Shown piece by piece: positions 1,329 through 37,163 of a stretch of DNA of 37,163 nt (positions within the stretch are counted from its first letter, which is position 1; every line of letters begins with the position of its first letter). The notes beneath the pieces are model-generated. The model worked only from the letters and a program-made list of their open reading frames with translations, was not told the DNA's origin and ran no database searches. The DNA is from a virus. The translations under genes and the position numbers were made by a program. The stretch spans positions 1-37,163 of the IMG/VR virus record IMGVR_UViG_3300038954_000740. One strand, given 5' to 3'.

Positions 1329-1437
1329 GAGTCTGGAGAGTCTGAGTGAGAGAAAAGCGATCGGGCACGACGCCCGGCCGTGCCTCCAGGCCAATCCCCG
1401 GCGAGAGGCAGGACCCGGCCCCGAGGCCGGGATGGTG

Positions 1438-1650
1438 CTACGCGCGCCGTGCGAGGCGCCGATCGGGCTCGTGGTGCTCCGCGGCCGTACGGGCGTCGAC
1501 GCGGCCCTCACCGCCGCACACGGGGCAGAGGGCTTCGTACGTGCCGCGCGGCGTCGCCGCTTCGGCGCGGCCTACCCCCGAGCACCGGGGGCAGACGTCG
1601 GGCATGGGCTGCGGTTGGCGCGTGAGGCGTGAAACTCCGTTCGAGTTCAT
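1438..1650 (-). CDS. Small two-CxxC zinc-binding protein, copy 1
   Basis: 70 residues. Two CxxCxGxG-type knuckles (CPRCSGVGR and CPVCGGEGR), spaced about 17 residues apart, resemble one half of a DnaJ-type zinc finger, so one zinc is probably bound by the four cysteines. The tail is basic (PDRRLARRA). A paralog of identical length is at 16629-16841, with the same N-terminus MNSNG, the same zinc core and the same VDARTA tail. It sits between the two other conserved genes of the minus-strand operon. Downstream on the minus strand lies a GC hairpin (CCCGGCC, loop, GGCCGGG) that is also kept in the second copy. A role as a small nucleic-acid-binding or adaptor protein is plausible but unproven. 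Confidence 0.75.
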   Translation of the reverse strand: MNSNGVSRLTRQPQPMPDVCPRCSGVGRAEAATPRGTYEALCPVCGGEGRVDARTAAEHHEPDRRLARRA

Positions 1651-2689: not shown

Positions 2690-2735
2690 GTTGCAGACGC
2701 GGGGCACTCTCCGTAGATTGTCCCAAACGTAGAAA

Positions 2736-2775
2736 CGCCCGATCCGCCGAAGGCGAACCGGGCGCCGCTTTTTGG
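2736..2775 (+). terminator. Intrinsic terminator of the HTH gene
   Basis: Arms CGCCCG and CGGGCG with an inner stem TCCGCC/GGCGA around GAAG, followed by CCGC and TTTTT at about 2769-2773. It lies 47 bp after the stop of the HTH gene. Confidence 0.8.
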
Positions 2776-2911
2776 AGCACCGCTGAACTTTGGTAGGGGA
2801 CGCGGTGCGCTCACACACGCAGCTCTAAACCGCGCGCTTGACTGTATGGTAGCACGACCGGAGGACACTTGCAAAACGACGCGACGGCATTTTCACGCCG
2901 TCAGTGAGATA

Positions 2912-2957
2912 GGCCGCCCGCCTGTGGATCGCATCCGCTGGCGAGGTGGCCTTTTCG
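2912..2957 (+). terminator. GC hairpin followed by TTTT
   Basis: GGCCGCCCGCC pairs imperfectly with GGCGAGGTGGCC, followed by TTTTCG. It lies in the 363-bp gene-free stretch 2690-3052, which otherwise holds only the HTH terminator and a CTGAA/TTCAG palindrome near 3022-3036 just before the next gene. It could end transcripts entering from upstream or act as an attenuator for the RHH gene at 3053. Confidence 0.5.
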
Positions 2958-3052
2958 TGTTTCAGATCGCCGTTTCTGGCAATCTGAGAAGGATTCAGCG
3001 GTCTCCCCCCGTTGTTGGTGACACTGAAAACTTCAGATAATTTCTTCTCACC

Positions 3053-12538: not shown

Positions 12539-13195
12539 TTACTGAGCGGCGATCTGCGCGGTGTCCTGAAGGAGCTGCCGGACTTCGGCCGCGGCCTTGT
12601 CGTCGTACCCGTCGAGGACCGTACGGCCGTCCTGGACCGCGTAGGCGTACGCCACGCGCTGCGCGGTGCCGTCGAGCACCGGAAAGCCGTAGACGTCGAG
12701 CACGTCGGCAATCTGCTTCGCGAGGGCCGTCCGCGGGTCGCGCCGGCTTGCCACGAAGGCCGGGCGGATGGTGCCCTCGTCCGCGGCCGTCTGCACGGTG
12801 TCCATGAACTCGACGGTGCCCCACAGATCCAATGCCGACGGCTGCACGGGGATGAGGAGCACGTCGGCCACCGCGGCCACAGCGCCGGTGTGCGTTCCGA
12901 GCCGGGCGGACCCGTCAATCACCACCGCGTCGACGCCGGCCGCGTGACGCTCCACGAGAATCCCGAGCTGGCCCGCATTCGTCGCGCGCTCGACGCGGGG
13001 GCCGTCATAGTCGGCCGGGCTTCGAGCTCGCCAGTCGCGGGCGCTGCCCTGCGTGTCGGTGTCCAGGATCACCGTCTCGTATCCGTCGAGCTGGATCGCG
13101 CGGGCGAGGTTCACCGCGATCGTGGTTTTCCCGCACCCGCCCTTCGGGTTCTGCACGGCAATCACGAGGGCATCCACGTCCGGGCGCGTCGGCAT
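12539..13195 (-). CDS. parA: ParA-type partition ATPase, cassette 1
   Basis: 218 residues. It has the deviant Walker A NPKGGCGKTTIAVNLA (residues about 15-30), the A' segment VILDTDTQGSARDW with the signature Asp, and a Walker B-like VVIDGSARLG. It lacks an N-terminal HTH extension, so it is a small type Ib-like ParA that relies on a separate DNA-binding partner, here the RHH protein. It would form a DNA-associated gradient to separate plasmid copies. The start at 13195 is just downstream of four TAGG tetramers (13204-13219). It differs clearly from the second ParA in this window (35852-36673), so the two partition systems are not recent copies. Confidence 0.93.
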   Translation of the reverse strand: MPTRPDVDALVIAVQNPKGGCGKTTIAVNLARAIQLDGYETVILDTDTQGSARDWRARSPADYDGPRVERATNAGQLGILVERHAAGVDAVVIDGSARLGTHTGAVAAVADVLLIPVQPSALDLWGTVEFMDTVQTAADEGTIRPAFVASRRDPRTALAKQIADVLDVYGFPVLDGTAQRVAYAYAVQDGRTVLDGYDDKAAAEVRQLLQDTAQIAAQ

Positions 13196-13203
13196 TGTGC
13201 AGA

Positions 13204-13219
13204 TAGGTAGGTAGGTAGG
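13204..13219. promoter_or_regulatory. Partition operator 1, site 1 (upstream of parA)
   Basis: Four head-to-tail TAGG tetramers, 8 bp upstream of the parA start. Likely operator and centromere-like site of cassette 1, bound by the RHH protein. Confidence 0.75.
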
Positions 13220-13283
13220 CGAGACGAGAGGATGCAACGTCGGGACGAGCTCGCCACGGCGTCAAGATGTGTGGAGCATGAGA

Positions 13284-13920
13284 AGCGCAGATCCGCACCG
13301 GCAGGGGCTCACCCGCGACCCGGCCCCTCCGGTGCGGATCGGAGCGACGACCAGGCGGCTGCCAGCGATCGGGGCACGATCGGCGGGCGACGTTCAGGAC
13401 GGCCGGACACGCCTGGAGGCGTCCGGGGCGCATGAGCGACGCGGGGAGGAAGCAGGCGCGGGAGGTCCGTCGACCGCGCGATGCGGCTTCCGCACGGAGC
13501 GACGCGCCCCGGCTGCCGGCCCCCAACGCGAACGAGGACCGACCGACCGCGCGGAGGTGCCGAGGCCGGGGCGACGATGCGAACCCGACCACACGCGCCC
13601 AACAGCCCGTGAGCAGCGTCGTCCCTGGTGCGCCACGTAGCGCGGCGCCGGGCCTTGCGGCTGCCCCTACACGCAAACGGCACCCCGGCCGGTGGCCCGG
13701 CCCAGGGAGTGGACGAGGATTCCGACATGATGTGTGGAAGCGCGGCTGTGCCCCACGTCTGCACGTGCACGGAGCCTGTCGGAGTGGACGGGCCGGGGCA
13801 CAGGGGAAGCGCTGGAACGCGTATTCCCGTGCCAACGACTGGGTGGACGGACAGCCCGCCGAACCCACGTCCGCTCAGAGCCGAAAGATTCCGCCCCGAA
13901 GGGGTGTGGTGCGACGAATC
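13284..13920 (+). ncRNA. Structured non-coding element, copy A
   Basis: 637 nt, aligning end to end with 36953-37163 joined to 1-453. The first 300 nt differ at only about seven positions, the rest at more, with single-base indels that destroy all frames. Clear stems: GATCCGCACCGG (13290-13301) plus AGGGGC (13303-13308) with GCCCCT plus CCGGTGCGGATC (13323-13340); CGATC (13366-13370)/GATCG (13378-13382); CCGGA..CGCC/GGCGTCCGG; GGAAGC (13448-13453)/GCTTCC (13486-13491); GCCGGGCC (13647-13654)/GGCCCGGC (13694-13701); GCCTGTC (13774-13780)/GACGGGC (13787-13793); CCCC-GAAG-GGGG near 13895. Three substitutions inside stems change A-U to G-U (13297, 13368) or C-G to U-G (13777). All keep pairing on the + strand and would break it on the minus strand. 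No known RNA family was recognised. It starts about 90 bp upstream of, and divergent from, parA. Confidence 0.6.
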
Positions 13921-13989
13921 GAGCGAGAGCGGATGCGATCTGACGGGGTGCACATCCACCGCACAATGTCCGCAGGGGCGTTTCGGGGT

Positions 13990-15455: not shown

Positions 15456-16067
15456 TCACGAGCTGTCGCCGTCGTCTGCCACCCAGTAGTCGGGCCAGGT
15501 CGCAGACATGTCCCGATCGAGGGCCTGCTCCATCTCGTGCGCATTCAGCAGAAGAGCTGCAGCCTGCTCGCGTTCCGTGCGGATTTTTTGGCGCAGGGCA
15601 CCTCGTATCCGTTCGGGTCCGCCAGCAGCGATACGAGGATGAATGAAGAACTGGACCTCCTCGTGCTCGCGGCCGTCGCTGGCCACGGGCGTGTAGCACA
15701 GTGCGGGCACCGGGGCCATGATCCCCGTCAGGAATGTCCGCCCGGTGATGTCGCACGTATGACGAATCATCCGCGTCGGAGTGCGGGCCACACCCTCATC
15801 CTCGGTGACGACCTCGCGATTCACCATCACCTCGCGCGTGCTATCGTCAGAGCCGCGGTACTCCTCCCACTCGGAGTAGTAGACCAGCCGCAGCTGGATA
15901 GGACTCCCTTCCCGGGGAGCCCACAGGTAGTTCTCTGGCTCGGCATCGTCTTCATCGACGTCGTGCAGCAGGTCGCTGTAGAGCGCAGCCCATTCGGTGA
16001 TGTCTTGGGGGACGTCTGGGCCTTTTTCAGCGTTCGTAACACTGGGGATTTCATTTCCGTTGATCAT
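15456..16067 (-). CDS. Acidic hypothetical protein, copy 2 of the duplicated operon
   Basis: 203 residues. Distant paralog of 687-1328: both have a W/Y-rich middle, the motif HPRI(A/V)A(G/A)GP followed by a helical region, and an acidic end. Here the middle carries IQLRLVYYSEWEEYRG and a segment with two cysteines (HTCDITGRTF, PALCYTP). The start MINGNEIPS was chosen; upstream is a strong hairpin (16102-16135). No membrane or export signal is seen. In half 2 an extra gene (16247-16489) stands between this gene and the zinc protein. Function unknown. Confidence 0.78.
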   Translation of the reverse strand: MINGNEIPSVTNAEKGPDVPQDITEWAALYSDLLHDVDEDDAEPENYLWAPREGSPIQLRLVYYSEWEEYRGSDDSTREVMVNREVVTEDEGVARTPTRMIRHTCDITGRTFLTGIMAPVPALCYTPVASDGREHEEVQFFIHPRIAAGGPERIRGALRQKIRTEREQAAALLLNAHEMEQALDRDMSATWPDYWVADDGDSS

Positions 16068-17481: not shown

Positions 17482-17510
17482 GTGCTTGCTGGTTTCAGTG
17501 AGCAATCCAA

Positions 17511-17896: not shown

Positions 17897-18214
17897 ATGC
17901 TCGACCGGATTGTATACACCGACCATGGTGAAGAAAAACGGCGGGCTGTAGGCGTGTCGGCCCCCGAGGTACGGGCCGTACTTGCCAACGGGACCGTTCT
18001 ACGCCGCTACCCCGAGGACCGCCCGTTTCCGAGCTATCTCGTGCTGGGGTGGATCGACGGTCGACCGGTGCACGTGGTGGCGGCGGATGACGAGGATCGA
18101 GAGGTTACGTGGATCATCACGATCTACGAGCCCGACCCGGACAAGTGGACGGAAGGCTTCAAGTGGAAACCTGAATGGAAGAGCACTGAAAACACATGGA
18201 AAAGCGAGAACTGA
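17897..18214 (+). CDS. DUF4258-type toxin of a toxin-antitoxin pair
   Basis: 105 residues. The beta-rich core with PSYLVLGWIDGRPVHVVAA followed by VTWIITIYEPDPDKW matches the DUF4258 pattern (hydrophobic strands, HVV, then IITxYxPD and a conserved Trp). DUF4258 proteins are found with YgiT/MqsA-type zinc-finger antitoxins, and exactly such a gene overlaps its end by 19 bp. By family analogy with MqsR and related folds it is expected to be a translation-linked RNase. The activity is inferred. Confidence 0.85.
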   Translation: MLDRIVYTDHGEEKRRAVGVSAPEVRAVLANGTVLRRYPEDRPFPSYLVLGWIDGRPVHVVAADDEDREVTWIITIYEPDPDKWTEGFKWKPEWKSTENTWKSEN

Positions 18215-18492
18215 AGGAGGCCCTACATGACGTTGAGGACCTGGAGGGCACACCGTGCTTCCATTGCCCAGAAGGGACGATGGAGCTCGGGACCGTGACC
18301 CGCACGCTGGAGGATGGAGACACTGTCCTCGTGGTGAAGGACGTGCCGGCGCTCGTGTGCGACCTCTGCGGGGCTCCGTCCTTCCCGGAGAGCGTGAGCG
18401 TTCACCTGGAGGAGCTGATGAACGTGGCTGTGACTGCCGACGTCGACTCGGCCGTGCAGCACTACACGCATCCCAAACCGCAGGCTGCGTGA
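18196..18492 (+). CDS. YgiT-type zinc-finger antitoxin
   Basis: 98 residues. CFHCPEGTMELGTVT and LVCDLCGAPSF carry the four zinc-binding cysteines of the YgiT/MqsA N-terminal domain. The usual C-terminal HTH of MqsA is absent, as in many DUF4258 partners; the end is a short helix. It overlaps the toxin gene by 19 bp. It would bind and neutralise the toxin. Confidence 0.9.
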   Translation: MEKRELKEALHDVEDLEGTPCFHCPEGTMELGTVTRTLEDGDTVLVVKDVPALVCDLCGAPSFPESVSVHLEELMNVAVTADVDSAVQHYTHPKPQAA

Positions 18493-19444: not shown

Positions 19445-19747
19445 ATGACAGACGAAGAGCTGCGGACCCTAGCGGACTACGTCGTCGACGAGCTCGAGCA
19501 TCGCGGCCTCGTGACGCCGCGCGAGCGCGACCTCGTGCCCGTGCGCAAACTGGCTGAAGAGGAGGATGTGAGCCGCAGCACGGTGTACCGCCGGCTGAAC
19601 CGCTACGACATCCCGAAGCGGGACGTGACGGGCAAGCCCAAACCCGAGGGGGACACGCGGACGACGTACGTGAGCCGGTCGGAGTGGCGGTCGGCTGGCG
19701 AACTCTCCACGCGCCAGGTGCGACGAGCCGACGGTCAGTACGACTAA
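19445..19747 (+). CDS. HTH protein, tandem copy 1
   Basis: 100 residues. The N-terminal helix LRTLADYVVDELEHRGL is followed by an HTH: VRKLAEEEDVSRSTVYRRL, then NRYDIPKRDVTG. The C-terminus is basic (RQVRRADGQYD). It is about 90% identical to the next gene, including DNA, so this is a recent tandem duplication. Both copies carry the dispersed motif just before the start codon. It may be a DNA-binding protein acting on that motif or an excisionase-like factor; the differences between copies cluster in the HTH (RSTVYRR versus TRTVYRR). Confidence 0.85.
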   Translation: MTDEELRTLADYVVDELEHRGLVTPRERDLVPVRKLAEEEDVSRSTVYRRLNRYDIPKRDVTGKPKPEGDTRTTYVSRSEWRSAGELSTRQVRRADGQYD

Positions 19748-19781: not shown

Positions 19782-20084
19782 ATGACAGACAAAGAGCTGC
19801 GAACCCTAGCGGACTACGTCGTCGACGAGCTCGAGCGTCGCGGTCTCGTGACGCCGAGCGAGCGCGACCTCGTGCCCGTGCGCAAACTGGCTGAAGAGGA
19901 GGAGGTGAGCACACGCACGGTGTACCGCCGGCTGAACCGCTACGACATCCCGAAGCGGGACGTGACGGGCAAGCCCAAGGCAGACGGCGACACGCGAACG
20001 ACGTACGTGAGTCGGTCGGAGTGGCGGTCGGCCGGCGAACTCTCGACGCGCCAGGTGCGACGAGCCGACGGTCAGTACGACTGA
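19782..20084 (+). CDS. HTH protein, tandem copy 2
   Basis: 100 residues, the near twin of 19445-19747. Substitutions are few: K for E at position 4, E-R-R-G for E-H-R-G, SERD for RERD, VSTRTV for VSRSTV, and KADG for KPEG. The last 30 residues are identical. The HTH would be in the middle (residues 31-60). It is followed by a 618-bp gene-free region with a small RNA. Confidence 0.85.
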   Translation: MTDKELRTLADYVVDELERRGLVTPSERDLVPVRKLAEEEEVSTRTVYRRLNRYDIPKRDVTGKPKADGDTRTTYVSRSEWRSAGELSTRQVRRADGQYD

Positions 20085-20202
20085 CCGTGTAGAACTTGAC
20101 TGTGCTTCGAGCCGTGCTGTGAGGTGGTATTTCCGTTATGTTTGCGGGCCCAAATCAGCCTTCAGACGCGTCAAACGCCGGTTTTCCCTGTTAATCTTCG
20201 GG

Positions 20203-20250
20203 TTGCATCGACCCCCGACAGCACCTATACTGTAGATCACAATTGTGTGA
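20203..20250 (+). promoter_or_regulatory. + strand promoter-like pair and TCACAATTGTGTGA palindrome
   Basis: TTGCAT (20203-20208) and TATACT (20226-20231) are 17 bp apart. Just downstream CACAATTGTG (20238-20247) is a perfect palindrome within TCACAATTGTGTGA. No + strand gene follows within 450 bp. It could drive an antisense transcript across the small RNA. Confidence 0.4.
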
Positions 20251-20272
20251 CCTTCTGCCGGGTGGCGAAAAG

Positions 20273-20360
20273 AAAAAGCCCGCCCCGGCAGCGCCGAGAC
20301 GGGCCCAAGTCGTGCTGAGCTGCGTGACCTTCCAAACCAGCGCTCAGCGTGACGACCAGC
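20273..20360 (-). ncRNA. Predicted small RNA, about 88 nt
   Basis: Transcribed on the minus strand from about 20360 (promoter at 20367-20395) to the T-run at 20277-20273. Structure: a 5' hairpin with arms GTCGT + GCTGAGC and GCTCAGC + ACGAC (two coaxial stems with a 3-nt bulge), then a terminator stem GCCCGTCTCGGC/GCCGGGGCGGGC that pairs fully only on the minus strand with G-U pairs, then TTTTT. One regulatory hairpin plus a terminator is the size and layout of plasmid copy-control antisense RNAs. No protein frame fits. A target is not apparent. Confidence 0.65.
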
Positions 20361-20366
20361 GCCATC

Positions 20367-20411
20367 ATTATACGGCGGTAAACAAAGTTTGTCAATCCTC
20401 TTGACAAACTT
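20367..20411 (-). promoter_or_regulatory. Consensus minus-strand promoter with overlapping operator palindrome
   Basis: On the minus strand TTGACA (20395-20390), 17-bp spacer, TATAAT (20372-20367): a perfect sigma70-type promoter. Its -35 lies in a perfect 11-bp inverted repeat, AAGTTTGTCAA (20385-20395), TCCTC, TTGACAAACTT (20401-20411), a likely repressor operator. It drives the predicted small RNA. Confidence 0.7.
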
Positions 20412-20702
20412 GATTTACTGGTAAGCCCGTAGCGGCGGCCGTTCCGTGATCTTCACGCGGACTACGCCGTATGATGGATGACATTGCCGGACGCGATTGC
20501 GTCCAGACGTTGGAGTGCAGCGAAGGAGCGAGCCCGCTTTACGGTTCGTCCTGCACTACCATGCGTCGATTCTCCAACATTCGAGCTTGCTTCCTCGGGC
20601 CCCTCGCCCGCAGGACTTGGACACTGGGTGCTCTCTGCACGTGCTGACCGCGCGTGTGGGAGCACCCTTTTTTCGTTTGCCTCTCACTTTCTGAGACCTC
20701 CC

Positions 20703-20927
20703 ATGGCCGACCAGACGAACGAAGACCTTCCGAACGAAGACCTTCCTGTCCTCACGGCGCAGCAGACCGCCGCCGAGCTCGACATTCGATTGGAGACCTT
20801 CTATCGGAAGGCCGGTCGAGGTGAGATCGAAGGGGCCCGTAAGGTGGGAGGAATCTGGCTCGTGGAGCGGGATGCCGTGAAGCGGCAGGCCAGAGAGGGG
20901 CAGTCGAAAGAGCTGCAACCTGCATAA
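20703..20927 (+). CDS. Small HTH protein before the half-2 replication genes
   Basis: 74 residues. LTAQQTAAELDIRLETFYRK is an excisionase-type HTH, followed by AGRGEIEGARKVGGIWLVER (wing) and a basic/acidic tail. The N-terminus contains a short internal repeat (NEDLPNEDLP). It occupies the place of the RHH gene at 3053 in half 1, immediately upstream of the replication operon, and may bind the palindrome at 20385-20411. A strong hairpin follows. Confidence 0.85.
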   Translation: MADQTNEDLPNEDLPVLTAQQTAAELDIRLETFYRKAGRGEIEGARKVGGIWLVERDAVKRQAREGQSKELQPA

Positions 20928-20998: not shown

Positions 20999-21271
20999 AT
21001 GAGAAAACTACCAAGCAGCACCGATGTTCGCAAGTCTCATCACCGGCCTGGCCGCGACCTCGAGCGGCGGCCGACCCGGATCGCTTCAGATGGTCCAGAC
21101 GATGGACCCACCGACAGCTCACGGACGGACAGCGATCCGCCCAACCACTTCCGGTACGCCCAGGCTTTACTTCTGCTTCTTCTGAAATGTCCGGAGCTCC
21201 GCGGGACCACCCGCGCAGTGCTTTTGGTCGTCGAGAACGCCGGCGGAGGCCGGGAGGGCGGCCGGCAATGA
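20999..21271 (+). CDS. Small protein translationally coupled to the half-2 initiator
   Basis: 90 residues. Basic/acidic disordered N-terminus (about 1-50), then a hydrophobic helix YAQALLLLLLKCPELRGTTR and VLLVVENAGG. The stop overlaps the next ATG as ATGA at 21268. The 3311-3649 product has the same layout, a similar final helix (P-R-L-L-G-T-x-K-A-V-V-x-V-x-E-N) and the same ATGA overlap with a replication gene, so the two are positional and probable sequence paralogs. Confidence 0.75.
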   Translation: MRKLPSSTDVRKSHHRPGRDLERRPTRIASDGPDDGPTDSSRTDSDPPNHFRYAQALLLLLLKCPELRGTTRAVLLVVENAGGGREGGRQ

Positions 21272-22617
21272 GACAGCTATCGATCGCAGAACCACCGGCG
21301 GGATCCTCGACGCATGACCAGTCTCAATCCGACCAGCAAGTAGTTCGAGGCGAGTCCGTCGATTACAGCGAAGGAGGCTTCAGTCGCACAAAGGATGCAC
21401 TCAAGGAACGTGCAGTCGACTTGGGATCCTCTCCCGCACTGGCGTACTGGTCGCTTTGCTGTCTGGCAAATCGGGCCGCCTCCGATGGAGCGCCAGTCTG
21501 CTACGCCAAGTGGCAAACTCTTGGTGAGGAAATGGGCAAGTCAGCCAGCACAGCAAGGCGCGCCGTCCGGAAGCTACAGGATGCAGGCCTCGTGCTCATC
21601 ATTGCCCGGAATCGCGTAGACGGCAAAAAGGTGTGCAACGCGTTCTGGATCCTCTCTGGCAAGCACGGACGGTGTCGACTGGGCGACCGGGTGCGCCTTC
21701 CGCCTCCAGTCGCACGGCGCGTGGTCAAAGGAACCGGCCAATCGCTCCCGAAGGGATATACGCTCGAGGTGGAGTACATTCCGCCACCGAGCGACGGCGA
21801 AAAACAGCCCGGTGCGACCTACAACGCGTACCGCGTGCCGGTCGATGGGCTTCGCGAAATCACGCCTGAGGACGAGGGGGGGGTAGGTGGCACCGATGCA
21901 CATGGGAAGGTTCCACCCATGCACCCTACCCCCAAAGGCGGAAAAACAGGCGATTCTGCCCCAAAATCGCCTTCTGACGGCGATGAGGACGGAAACGCGC
22001 GCGAAAAGACCAACCAGGGGGTAGGTGGCACCCATGCTACCTCCTTAAATACAGATAAGAAGAAAGATAAAGAGAGAGGGGCGCGCGCGATGTCTGAGCT
22101 CGTGGAGGACTTCCAATCCGACCTCGATGCCAACCAGCGCGGCGACGGCGCAGACTCTGCCCCGCCCGAGCTCGACGAGAGCGAAAGCGAGGACGACCCG
22201 GTTGCCGAGCGGTTCGAGGCCCTGGTGAAGGCATGGCGCAACACGTCGGCGGCGCCCCCGCTTCGCCAACAGACCGAGCAGACCCTGTACGAGTGGGCCA
22301 AGCGTGGGGCGATCGACGACGTCTGCCTCTTCAGTCGGGTCCTCCAGAAGGACGCGACGGGATGCACGGGACGACTAAACCTCGGTGTGCTCCTGGAGAA
22401 GTACCGGCAGGAGCGCGACCGGTACCGCGAGAAGCAACAGCGGCGTGCAGAGAACGGTCGCTGCCACGTCCGAGACCCCGGCCCGGACGATCTGATGACG
22501 TACGCCGAGATGCTGGAGGTGTGGAAGCAGCGGGGCCGTTCGACGCCGATCGAGGAGATGTTCGAGCCCGTGGACCAACCTGAGGGGAAACCGCTCTGGA
22601 AACTGCGTGAGCCGTGA
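21268..22617 (+). CDS. Winged-helix replication initiator-like protein
   Basis: 449 residues. Residues about 55-140 contain a winged-helix segment (YAKWQTLGEEMGKSASTARR, then KLQDAGLVLII) of the kind found at the N-terminus of phage and plasmid initiators. The middle (about 195-290) is low-complexity and its DNA holds iteron-like repeats and an AT-rich stretch. The C-terminal part (about 315-449) is helical (FEALVKAWRNTSAAPPLRQQ, then EWAKRGAIDD), in the place of a helicase-loading domain. The DnaB gene follows 50 bp later, so this protein likely recognises the origin and recruits that helicase, as lambda O/P or DnaD-type proteins do. Start fixed by ATGA coupling. Family assignment by layout rather than by clear motifs. 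Confidence 0.75.
   Translation: MRQLSIAEPPAGSSTHDQSQSDQQVVRGESVDYSEGGFSRTKDALKERAVDLGSSPALAYWSLCCLANRAASDGAPVCYAKWQTLGEEMGKSASTARRAVRKLQDAGLVLIIARNRVDGKKVCNAFWILSGKHGRCRLGDRVRLPPPVARRVVKGTGQSLPKGYTLEVEYIPPPSDGEKQPGATYNAYRVPVDGLREITPEDEGGVGGTDAHGKVPPMHPTPKGGKTGDSAPKSPSDGDEDGNAREKTNQGVGGTHATSLNTDKKKDKERGARAMSELVEDFQSDLDANQRGDGADSAPPELDESESEDDPVAERFEALVKAWRNTSAAPPLRQQTEQTLYEWAKRGAIDDVCLFSRVLQKDATGCTGRLNLGVLLEKYRQERDRYREKQQRRAENGRCHVRDPGPDDLMTYAEMLEVWKQRGRSTPIEEMFEPVDQPEGKPLWKLREP
21879..22075. other. Candidate replication origin inside the initiator gene
   Basis: GGGGGTAGGTGGCACC followed by GATGC (21879-21899) recurs as the same 16-mer followed by CATGC (22017-22037), 20 of 21 bases identical. 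A related inverted copy, reading CACCCTACCCCC, is at about 21922-21933. Between them is an AGGCGATT/AATCGCCT inverted repeat (21948-21972). An AT-rich tract (about 22040-22075, encoding NTDKKKDKERG) follows the last copy. Iterons plus an AT-rich segment within the initiator gene match the lambda O-type origin layout. Confidence 0.5.
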
Positions 22618-22667
22618 CGAGGCGAACCCGTGCCCTCACGCCCCCCTGTATCCAGACCAACAGACGC

Positions 22668-24191
22668 ATGACCGATTCAACGCAGCACAACGGAACGACC
22701 GAGAACGGACAGTCCCCGAACGGGCAGCCGCAGCGCATGAACGTCGACGACCGAGAGGAGCCGTCGTACCCGCTGGAGAAGATGAGCGGCCGGCAGAACG
22801 GCCGATCGTCGCGCTCCGGCCCGAAGACCGCACGCGTCCCGCCGCACAGCCTGGAGGTTGAACGCGCCGTGCTGGGCGCGGCGCTCCTCGACAACGAGGT
22901 GATCCCGACGGCAATCGACGTCCTAGACGGCGTGGACGAGCCGTTCTACGCCCGCAAGAATGCGATCCTGTGGGATGTGATCTGCACGCTCTTCAACCGC
23001 GGGGAGGCCGCGGACATGGTCACCGTCCACACCGAGATCGAGCGCCGCGGCGAGGCGGACCGCGTGTCCCAGTACTACGTGTCGGAGTGTACGGCGGAGG
23101 TCGCGTCGACGGCCAACGTCGAGGTTCACGCCCACATCCTCGCCGAGCACGCGCTGAAGCGATGTCTCGCCCGGGACGCCGGCACGATCCACCACAAGGC
23201 GTACGAGCCGGAGACCGACGCCTTCGAGCTCCTGGAGGAAGCGGAGTCCGCAATCTTCGGCGCCGGCCAGTCGCTGGCATCGGGACGAGCGGAGAGCTCC
23301 GGCGATCTCGTCGACTCGACGCTCGAACACCTGGAGTCCATCCACGGCAGTCCCGACGGGCTCACGGGCATCCCCTCCGGCTTTGGCCGCCTGGACGACC
23401 TGACGGCCGGCTGGCAGGACATGGACCTGATCGTGATCGCAGCCCGGCCGAGCATGGGGAAGACGAGCTTCGCGCTCGCCAATGCCTTGAACGCGTCGAT
23501 GCACCGGAAGCGTCCGACAGGCGTGGGGATTTTCTCCCTGGAGATGGGCGGCCGCCAGCTCATGCAACGGCTTCTCACGAGTCAGGCCCGCGTGGATGCC
23601 CAGAAGGCCCGCACCGGCCGCATGAGCGACGACGAGTGGCAACGCCTGTCCCGGGCCGCTGGCAAGCTCAGCAAGGCCGAAATCTTCATCGACGACACGC
23701 CCGGACTGTCGCCGATGCAACTGCGGGCGAAGGCCCGACGGATGAAGGCCGAACACGACATCGGCCTGATTCTCGTCGACTACTTGCAGCTCATGCAGTC
23801 GAGCGGCCCGAACATCAACACGCGCGAGCAAGAGATCGCGCACATCTCGCGCTCGCTCAAAGGGCTGGCGAAGGAGCTCGACCTTCCCGTGATCGCCCTC
23901 TCGCAGCTGAACCGGAAGTGCGAGCAGCGGAATCCCCCGCGGCCGAAAATGTCGGACCTCAGAGCCTCCGGGGCGATCGAGCAAGACGCCGACGTGGTCG
24001 CGTTCATCTACCGCGCGGAGCGGTACGACATCACGACCGACGAGAACGGCAACTCCACGGAGGGCATCGCCGAAATCCTCGTCGAGAAGCAGCGGAACGG
24101 CCCGACCGGGAAGGTGCACCTGTCGTTCGTCGAGCAGTTCGCCCGGTTTGAGAATTTGAGCGTGATCGGCGATGAGGATGCTCCCTTCTGA
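22668..24191 (+). CDS. dnaB: DnaB-type replicative helicase
   Basis: 507 residues. After a disordered N-terminal 55 residues comes the DnaB N-domain (VPPHSLEVERAVLGAALLDN, about 58-160), a linker, and the RecA-like ATPase: Walker A ARPSMGKTS (Lys265), IFSLEMGG, Walker B LILVDYLQLM (Asp371), and the arginine-rich/sensor segment ALSQLNRKCEQR...LRASGAIEQDADVV. All catalytic motifs are intact. It would unwind the replication fork of the half-2 replicon. ATG 22668 was preferred to GTG 22614, which overlaps the upstream stop and adds an unconserved stretch. No intein is present. Half 1 instead has an SF3 helicase. Confidence 0.96.
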   Translation: MTDSTQHNGTTENGQSPNGQPQRMNVDDREEPSYPLEKMSGRQNGRSSRSGPKTARVPPHSLEVERAVLGAALLDNEVIPTAIDVLDGVDEPFYARKNAILWDVICTLFNRGEAADMVTVHTEIERRGEADRVSQYYVSECTAEVASTANVEVHAHILAEHALKRCLARDAGTIHHKAYEPETDAFELLEEAESAIFGAGQSLASGRAESSGDLVDSTLEHLESIHGSPDGLTGIPSGFGRLDDLTAGWQDMDLIVIAARPSMGKTSFALANALNASMHRKRPTGVGIFSLEMGGRQLMQRLLTSQARVDAQKARTGRMSDDEWQRLSRAAGKLSKAEIFIDDTPGLSPMQLRAKARRMKAEHDIGLILVDYLQLMQSSGPNINTREQEIAHISRSLKGLAKELDLPVIALSQLNRKCEQRNPPRPKMSDLRASGAIEQDADVVAFIYRAERYDITTDENGNSTEGIAEILVEKQRNGPTGKVHLSFVEQFARFENLSVIGDEDAPF

Positions 24192-36695: not shown

Positions 36696-36788
36696 CAGAG
36701 GTCTGGAGGTAATCGGAACGTGAGCTCGTGACATCGGGAGGCAACGTCGGCACGGGCTCGCCACGGCGTCAAGATGTGCGCTTCATGA

Positions 36789-36952
36789 GGCCGATCTCGT
36801 GTTACAATGGGCGTGTTACAGCAAGCGCCCCCGAAACGCCGCGAAATCCCCACGTGCAGCCGCTGAAGGCGGATTCGGCCGTAACGCGGGCCCGCAGCTG
36901 TAACACGGCCGAATCGGCCTCCAATCGGGACCGCAAACACAGGTGGGCGAGG
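36789..36952. mobile_element. About 164-bp insertion with inverted repeats in the element-B leader
   Basis: Compared with copy A (CATGAG joined to AGCGCAG at 13278-13290), copy B has about 164 extra bases. They contain GTGTTACA twice (36799-36806, 36813-36820), its inverted form CTGTAACAC (36898-36906), a perfect 11-bp pair GATTCGGCCGT (36872-36882)/ACGGCCGAATC (36905-36915), and the palindrome GCGGGCCCGC (36886-36895). It carries no gene. It could be a MITE-like insertion or a separate iteron-bearing control region. Confidence 0.5.
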
Positions 36953-37163
36953 AGCGCAGATCCGCGCCGGCAGGGGCTCACCCGCGACCCGGCCCCTCCG
37001 GTGCGGATCGGAGCGACGACCAGGCGGCTGCCAGCGGTCGGAGCTTGATCGGCGGGCGCCGGTCAGGACGGCCGGACACGCCTGGAGGCGTCCGGGGCGC
37101 ATGAGCGACGCGGGGAGGAAGCAGGCGCGGGAGGTCCGTCGACCGCGCGATGCGGCTTCCGCA
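36953..37163 (+). ncRNA. Structured non-coding element copy B, 5' part
   Basis: Aligns with 13284-13494 of copy A with about seven differences. It contains the long 5' stem (GATCCGCGCCGG at 36959-36970 with CCGGTGCGGATC), in which an A-U pair of copy A is a G-U pair here, and the CGGTC/GATCG stem, where A-U is again G-U. The element continues at base 1-453 across the circle junction. It begins about 280 bp from, and is divergent to, the cassette 2 parA. The ~50 bp before the insertion (36741-36788) are also shared with 13234-13283. Confidence 0.55.
37135..37163. repeat. Terminal overlap, second copy
   Basis: Identical to bases 1-29. Joining the ends restores a 635-nt element that aligns end to end with an internal copy at 13284-13920, which supports true circularity. 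Confidence 0.9.

Follow-up and report, generated by a model that had tools for sequence, protein, structure and literature searches.

A predicted small RNA with a palindrome over its promoter lies upstream of a replication operon in a Salinibacter phage-plasmid

The window analysed here is the whole of IMG/VR virus record IMGVR_UViG_3300038954_000740, 37,163 nt in length. The ends of the record repeat by 29 bp, which makes it circular as assembled. Two segments, at 13230-13928 and, across the junction, at 36737-461, align in pieces that are 87–96% identical and split the record into halves. The segments (the second being 36737-37163 plus 1-461) are each about 0.7–0.9 kb long and near-identical; the halves measure 13.4 and 23.7 kb, each with replication and parA genes of its own. 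The record may represent a cointegrate or a two-part element whose halves have a region in common, or it may have been joined in assembly. The half-1 ParA (12539-13237) is 81% identical to the ParA of the small Salinibacter ruber plasmids pSR14 and pSR11, and pSR14 relatives exist for the half-1 tape-measure-like protein, the parA partner and an HTH gene, which identifies Salinibacter as the host. Judged from these genes, the element is a Salinibacter phage-plasmid, a circular virus-like DNA.

The predicted small RNA is located in half 2, between tandem HTH genes (19445 and 19782) and the replication operon (20703 onward). The proteins of the tandem genes (19445-19747 and 19782-20084) are 92% identical to each other, a recent duplication, and have 46% relatives in pSR31. 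At 17897-18492, a gene for a DUF4258 protein is followed by one for a YokU-like putative antitoxin, probably a toxin-antitoxin pair. The features around the small RNA are as follows.

20203-20231, plus strand: promoter-like pair TTGCAT-N17-TATACT facing the small RNA, score 14.1, second-best in the window
20244-20255, plus strand: TGTGTGACCTTC, a near-copy of TGCGTGACCTTC at 20321-20332; both are possible pairing sites for the small-RNA apical loop
20273-20360, minus strand: predicted small RNA of about 88 nt, its start placed 6–7 nt past the -10 box
20273-20306, minus strand: intrinsic terminator, stem 20306-20276, followed by TTTTTCTTTT
20309-20357, minus strand: two-part stem-loop, stems GTCGT/ACGAC and GCTGAGC/GCTCAGC, apical loop UUUGGAAGG open
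20367-20395, minus strand: promoter TTGACA-N17-TATAAT, -35 box at 20395-20390 inside the inverted repeat, 17-nt spacer, -10 box at 20372-20367
20378-20418: inverted repeat and putative operator; arms of 18 nt enclose TCCTC, and their inner 11 bp match perfectly
20446-20475, plus strand: GTGATC-N18-TATGAT, a weak promoter-like pair that points away from the small-RNA promoter, with the inverted repeat between the two
20482-20673, plus strand: strongly folded stretch, either a leader or a second RNA, with an 18-bp terminator (20626-20667) and TTTTTT at its end
20703-20927, plus strand: opening ORF of the operon, coding for 74 aa, HTH_17/excisionase-like; GACCTTCC, which complements the small-RNA loop, occurs twice at its start
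21187-22617, plus strand: replication initiator, HTH_36, PHROG replication initiation protein
22614-24191, plus strand: DnaB-type replicative helicase, annotated in the operon after the initiator

An earlier note on this DNA had described the site as gene-free and just upstream of the half-2 replication operon. Both descriptions hold: no convincing gene lies within 20085-20702, and the operon comprises an initiator gene with internal iteron-like repeats and the DnaB gene. The small RNA is directly upstream of the operon, with two small ORFs between it and the initiator gene. The repeats, GGGTAGGTGGCACC(G/C)ATGC, occupy 21879-22042 and likely mark a lambda-O-style origin, an assignment made by analogy: the lambda O gene contains the lambda origin. 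No DnaA boxes were found in the window.

The minus-strand TTGACA-N17-TATAAT reported earlier is present and is the only 12/12 promoter match in the 37 kb, where base composition leads one to expect 0.001. With a weight-matrix score of 21.9 it is the strongest promoter of the window, a value reached by none of 100 dinucleotide-shuffled windows (best 19.5). The matrix is of the E. coli type and drawn from general knowledge, S. ruber promoters being characterised here only through recurrent TTGACA boxes. Such -35 boxes stand before conserved units and Y-family polymerase genes on S. ruber plasmids, which makes it plausible that the host can use promoters of this kind.

The inverted repeat over the -35 box is real and longer than the 11 bp first described. 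Its perfect inner arms, AAGTTTGTCAA (20385-20395) and TTGACAAACTT (20401-20411), flank TCCTC in an 11-5-11 arrangement, and the outer arms (20378-20395 and 20401-20418) extend to 18 nt with 89% complementarity and two mismatched positions. The whole palindrome spans 41 bp, from GTAAA to TTTAC, and the -35 box falls in one half of it. It is the only A/T-rich perfect repeat in the window with arms of at least 11, the remaining ones being G/C hairpins. The palindrome is of the dimer type and a putative operator.

Downstream of the promoter, the unit of about 88 nt with a two-part hairpin and a terminator is borne out by folding. The predicted RNA has a minimum free energy of -47.2 kcal/mol (z -3.4 against shuffles), with structure that extends beyond the 14-pair terminator stem, and the apical loop is its most accessible part. 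A near-identical terminator hairpin (15427-15398) stands behind the minus-strand gene 15456-16067, so the small-RNA terminator is probably used by the host. A peptide-coding reading of a 42-codon frame was rejected, as its ATG at 20365 precedes the predicted start and the frame runs through the terminator. A promoter followed by a terminator with no gene in between, the mark of an intrinsic small-RNA transcription unit, is what we find, and on this sequence the locus near-certainly holds an intact unit of that type.

On the plus strand, the facing promoter-like pair noted earlier at 20203-20231 is also present and ranks second in the window, but its score is ordinary, being reached somewhere in 44% of shuffled windows. 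A transcript from it, with a predicted start at 20238, would run antisense to the small RNA over its full length; CACAATTGTG (20238-20247), a palindrome of 10 bp, lies at this start. Further along is a leader absent from the earlier note. The stretch 20430-20680 folds with -115.7 kcal/mol (z -5.6), far beyond chance and more strongly than the small RNA, and the leader's 18-bp hairpin and TTTTTT (20626-20673) end 29 nt before ORF 20703. Since no promoter is seen in the gap from this terminator to the ORF, transcription probably enters the operon by read-through. The weak pair at 20446-20475 could drive the leader RNA divergently, with the palindrome in between, and the facing promoter could drive a longer version of the leader, antisense to the small RNA. 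No Rfam family corresponds to the leader (20482-20673). A similar folded stretch lies ahead of the half-1 operon (2840-3045, z -3.3). An anti-terminator or pIP501-type attenuator switch was considered and found no support in equilibrium folding, to which this result pertains: the stem probability of the leader terminator is about 1 with or without blocking of 20270-20360.

The apical loop has a candidate pairing site in cis. Against TGTGTGACCTTC at 20244, just inside the predicted start of the facing transcript, it reaches -29.0 kcal/mol, a value matched by only 0.06% of the 33-mers in the window, probably including the perfect cis target. Within the window, GTGACCTTC occurs only at 20244 and at the fully complementary site 20324.

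The arrangement recurs. A scan for a promoter of score at least 11.9 followed, after 25–150 nt, by a stable terminator was designed after the first unit had been seen. It returned two units in 37 kb, at 20395 and 2874, where shuffled windows average 0.08. Both are on the minus strand, and each is immediately upstream of the replication operon of its half. The second is:

2735-2874, minus strand: half-1 counterpart unit, TTGCAA-N17-TACCAT and, about 105 nt further, a terminator; the unit precedes the CopG-like/primase operon (3053, 3529)

The same scan finds one unit in pSR14, at 1818 on the minus strand, likewise upstream of a CopG-like/primase operon and thus in the same place and on the same strand, and none at the replication operons of pSR11 (strain M8) and pSR31. 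The promoters of the half-1 and pSR14 units are weak (scores 12.0 and 13.1); with a scan that is post hoc, the recurrence is support and not proof. These two units are seemingly transcribed away from their operons, and full antisense overlap may therefore not be something that all the units share.

No homologue of the small RNA was found in plasmids, phages or viral contigs, and there is thus no covariation to draw on. The viral contigs were queried with the operator, the RNA stem and six proteins. In the same three collections half 2 has no relatives except a DnaB relative at 33% identity (L003). Rfam covariance models give no match at gathering score in the window and only chance-level ones at a relaxed threshold. 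The one operator match in the genome-contig scan falls in an archaeal HD-domain gene and is attributed to chance, and no sequence resembling this palindrome occurs in the S. ruber plasmids examined.

Those plasmids carry units of a comparable build. A conserved, unannotated promoter-terminator unit, GGTTAC..CGTCACAGTTCCTGTTGACA..AAAGCTCGCC..GGCGGGCTTTT, is found on seven of them with 75–100% identity, mostly near a thermonuclease gene, and is a candidate plasmid small RNA:

pSR35, L005:22925-23055
pSR76, L020:32577-32711
pSR66, L022:2501-2635
pSR47, L023:4001-4131
pSR61 (M1), L019:27962-28084
pSR67, L024:4001-4070
pSR84, L025:1701-1770

Like the small RNA described here, these intergenic units have a TTGACA promoter and, within 50–90 nt, a G/C-rich terminator with GGCGGGC-TTTT. 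Their bodies, however, show no sequence homology to it, and they lie beside the thermonuclease gene rather than directly at a replication operon. They were rejected as relatives, the alignment showing the promoter and terminator alone in common. A second apparently shared unit, TTGACG-N19-TATACT and, about 136 nt later, a terminator, lies in thermonuclease-gene neighbourhoods of pSR31 (NZ_CP030370, 17209, minus strand) and pSR16 (NZ_CP030362, 9671, plus strand). Separately, the Y-family polymerase gene of pSR35 has TACACATACAACGCACAT in front of it (L005, about 1431-1449, minus strand), a sequence that resembles the LexA direct repeat of Balneolaeota and is a candidate Salinibacter SOS box.

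Three known systems invite comparison. Lambda OOP is a short RNA transcribed leftward, from a promoter of its own to a hairpin terminator, just left of the initiator gene and with a LexA site on its promoter; it shares 52 bases with the end of the cII gene and damps cII mRNA by antisense pairing (PMC5869508). The locus described here shares with it a leftward RNA beside replication genes, an own promoter and terminator, a putative repressor site on the promoter and an initiator gene with origin-like repeats. In contrast to OOP, the small RNA overlaps no gene (its nearest left-hand neighbour stops at 20084, whereas the RNA reaches only to about 20273), and its palindrome does not resemble the SOS box proposed above for Salinibacter. 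Rfam shows no sequence similarity between the two RNAs. In pIP501 and other Inc18 plasmids, RNAIII pairs with the repR leader, the promoters are convergent, a leader terminator precedes the replication gene, and CopR is a dimeric repressor with an inverted-repeat operator (PMC4981023). Convergent promoters, a long leader, an opposite-strand RNA and a leader terminator are predicted here as well, along with an inverted repeat, and, as with countertranscribed RNAs of the pIP501/pT181 type, the small RNA would be complementary to any transcript from 20203-20231, whose start is a prediction. CopR, however, represses the sense promoter, whereas the palindrome here is on the antisense promoter, and the terminator here is about 270 nt past the antisense region and folds regardless. 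With no gene overlap, a palindrome on its own promoter and an unsupported attenuator switch, the small RNA belongs to neither the OOP nor the RNAIII family. The P4 CI and P1 c4 RNAs are phage-plasmid immunity RNAs processed from the same strand as their target. In both cases a phage-plasmid small RNA has two leader sites to pair with upstream of a replication or antirepressor operon, the sites here being predicted ones, but the small RNA here has its own opposite-strand promoter.

The reading we prefer, at a probability of roughly 45%, is a repressible antisense small RNA that damps rightward early and replication transcription. A very strong promoter would yield an untranslated RNA of approximately 88 nt, made leftward and back to back with the rightward replication operon, and a dimeric DNA-binding protein would repress this promoter through the palindrome over its -35 box. 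The RNA would pair with the leader transcript from the facing promoter, its apical loop starting the contact close to the 5' end of the leader transcript, where UG(C/U)GUGACCUUC occurs twice. Pairing would lessen read-through into the attenuator-like leader and thereby the production of initiator and DnaB. Copy-number control by such an RNA is plausible. From the promoter, palindrome, hairpin, terminator, position and recurrence at the half-1 operon and in pSR14, all directly seen, we infer transcription, repression, the pairing partner and the effect on replication. In favour of this antisense reading are the perfect promoter, the stable fold, the shared terminator, the two units of the scan and the identity of the operon, together with the rank of the facing promoter, the loop-pairing energy and the plausible use of TTGACA by the host. 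It is weakened by the ordinary score of the facing promoter, the divergent half-1 and pSR14 units, the lack of a unit in pSR11 and pSR31, the unchanged fold of the leader terminator, and the lack of a homologue and hence of covariation.

The small RNA could instead act in trans, with its loop GGUUUGGAAGGUC pairing with the start of 20703 (20724 GACCUUCCGAAC, 20739 GACCUUCC) or with other messages of the element or host and blocking translation, the cis overlap being incidental. The loop, the accessible part of the RNA, can form 12 bp, one of them G-U, with GACCTTCCGAAC at codons 8–11 of ORF 20703, and 8 bp with a second copy. The earlier note had proposed a search for such complementarity, which exists but reaches only about p = 0.01 (1% of random 90-nt regions attain it). 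Of shuffled loops, 14% equal the duplex energy, and no pairing with the first ORF is seen for the half-1 and pSR14 units. Pairing sites are not in excess across the window (4 versus 2.0 +/- 1.9, p 0.17), so no target is established, and we consider a trans-acting RNA rather unlikely. We give less credence still to the idea that leftward transcription itself matters, the regulated strong promoter interfering with the facing one or opening the DNA and the short terminated RNA being a by-product. Convergent and divergent promoters do lie within 250 bp, the promoter is very strong, and the terminator is placed to halt the RNA before the plus-strand HTH genes; lambda-type replicons, moreover, require transcription near the origin. 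Yet the RNA body is more stable than shuffles and structured past its terminator, and the iteron-like repeats are 1.5 kb away.

The remaining two explanations concern the control and reach of the promoter. If the palindrome were a host LexA box, DNA damage would turn the RNA on, as befits the OOP layout, in which the promoter of a short leftward RNA beside an initiator gene bears a repressor site (PMC5869508), and LexA-like proteins of Bacteroidetes do use N5-spaced palindromes such as CTAA-N5-TTAG (PMC8565304). What precedes the Y-family polymerase gene of pSR35, however, is not this palindrome but ACACATACAACGCACATA, which resembles the direct-repeat LexA site of Balneolaeota (PMC7739468), and the S. 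ruber plasmids examined hold nothing like the palindrome; LexA control is therefore disfavoured and seems improbable. A strong, operator-bearing promoter in a phage-like element might also be a PL-like leftward early promoter, reading through an anti-termination-controlled terminator into leftward genes. But every likely gene within 2.5 kb to the left of the RNA is on the plus strand, the nearest likely minus-strand gene beginning at 17505, which leaves this the most improbable of the readings considered.

The earlier account is supported in part, in the unit, its palindrome and its position, with a layout that recurs at half 1 and in pSR14. Salinibacter ruber is the model bacterium for life in saturated brines. 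Many small phage-like plasmids occur in this species, and a virus can persist in it as an episome (PMC12064560). In the literature searched we found no report of an RNA regulator on its phage-like elements; the parts of the unit are ordinary in kind but undescribed in the Salinibacter lineage. Tentatively, Salinibacter phage-plasmids may share a layout of an HTH gene, a short opposite-strand RNA with its own promoter, a replication operon and sometimes a terminator-bearing leader, in which RNAs that differ between elements could define incompatibility or immunity groups. We know of no earlier RNA system of this kind in Rhodothermota, and the shared layout, if true, would be the first. Should the small RNA set replication or immunity, its loop and operator, both small and open to testing, would help to show how such elements coexist within a single cell.
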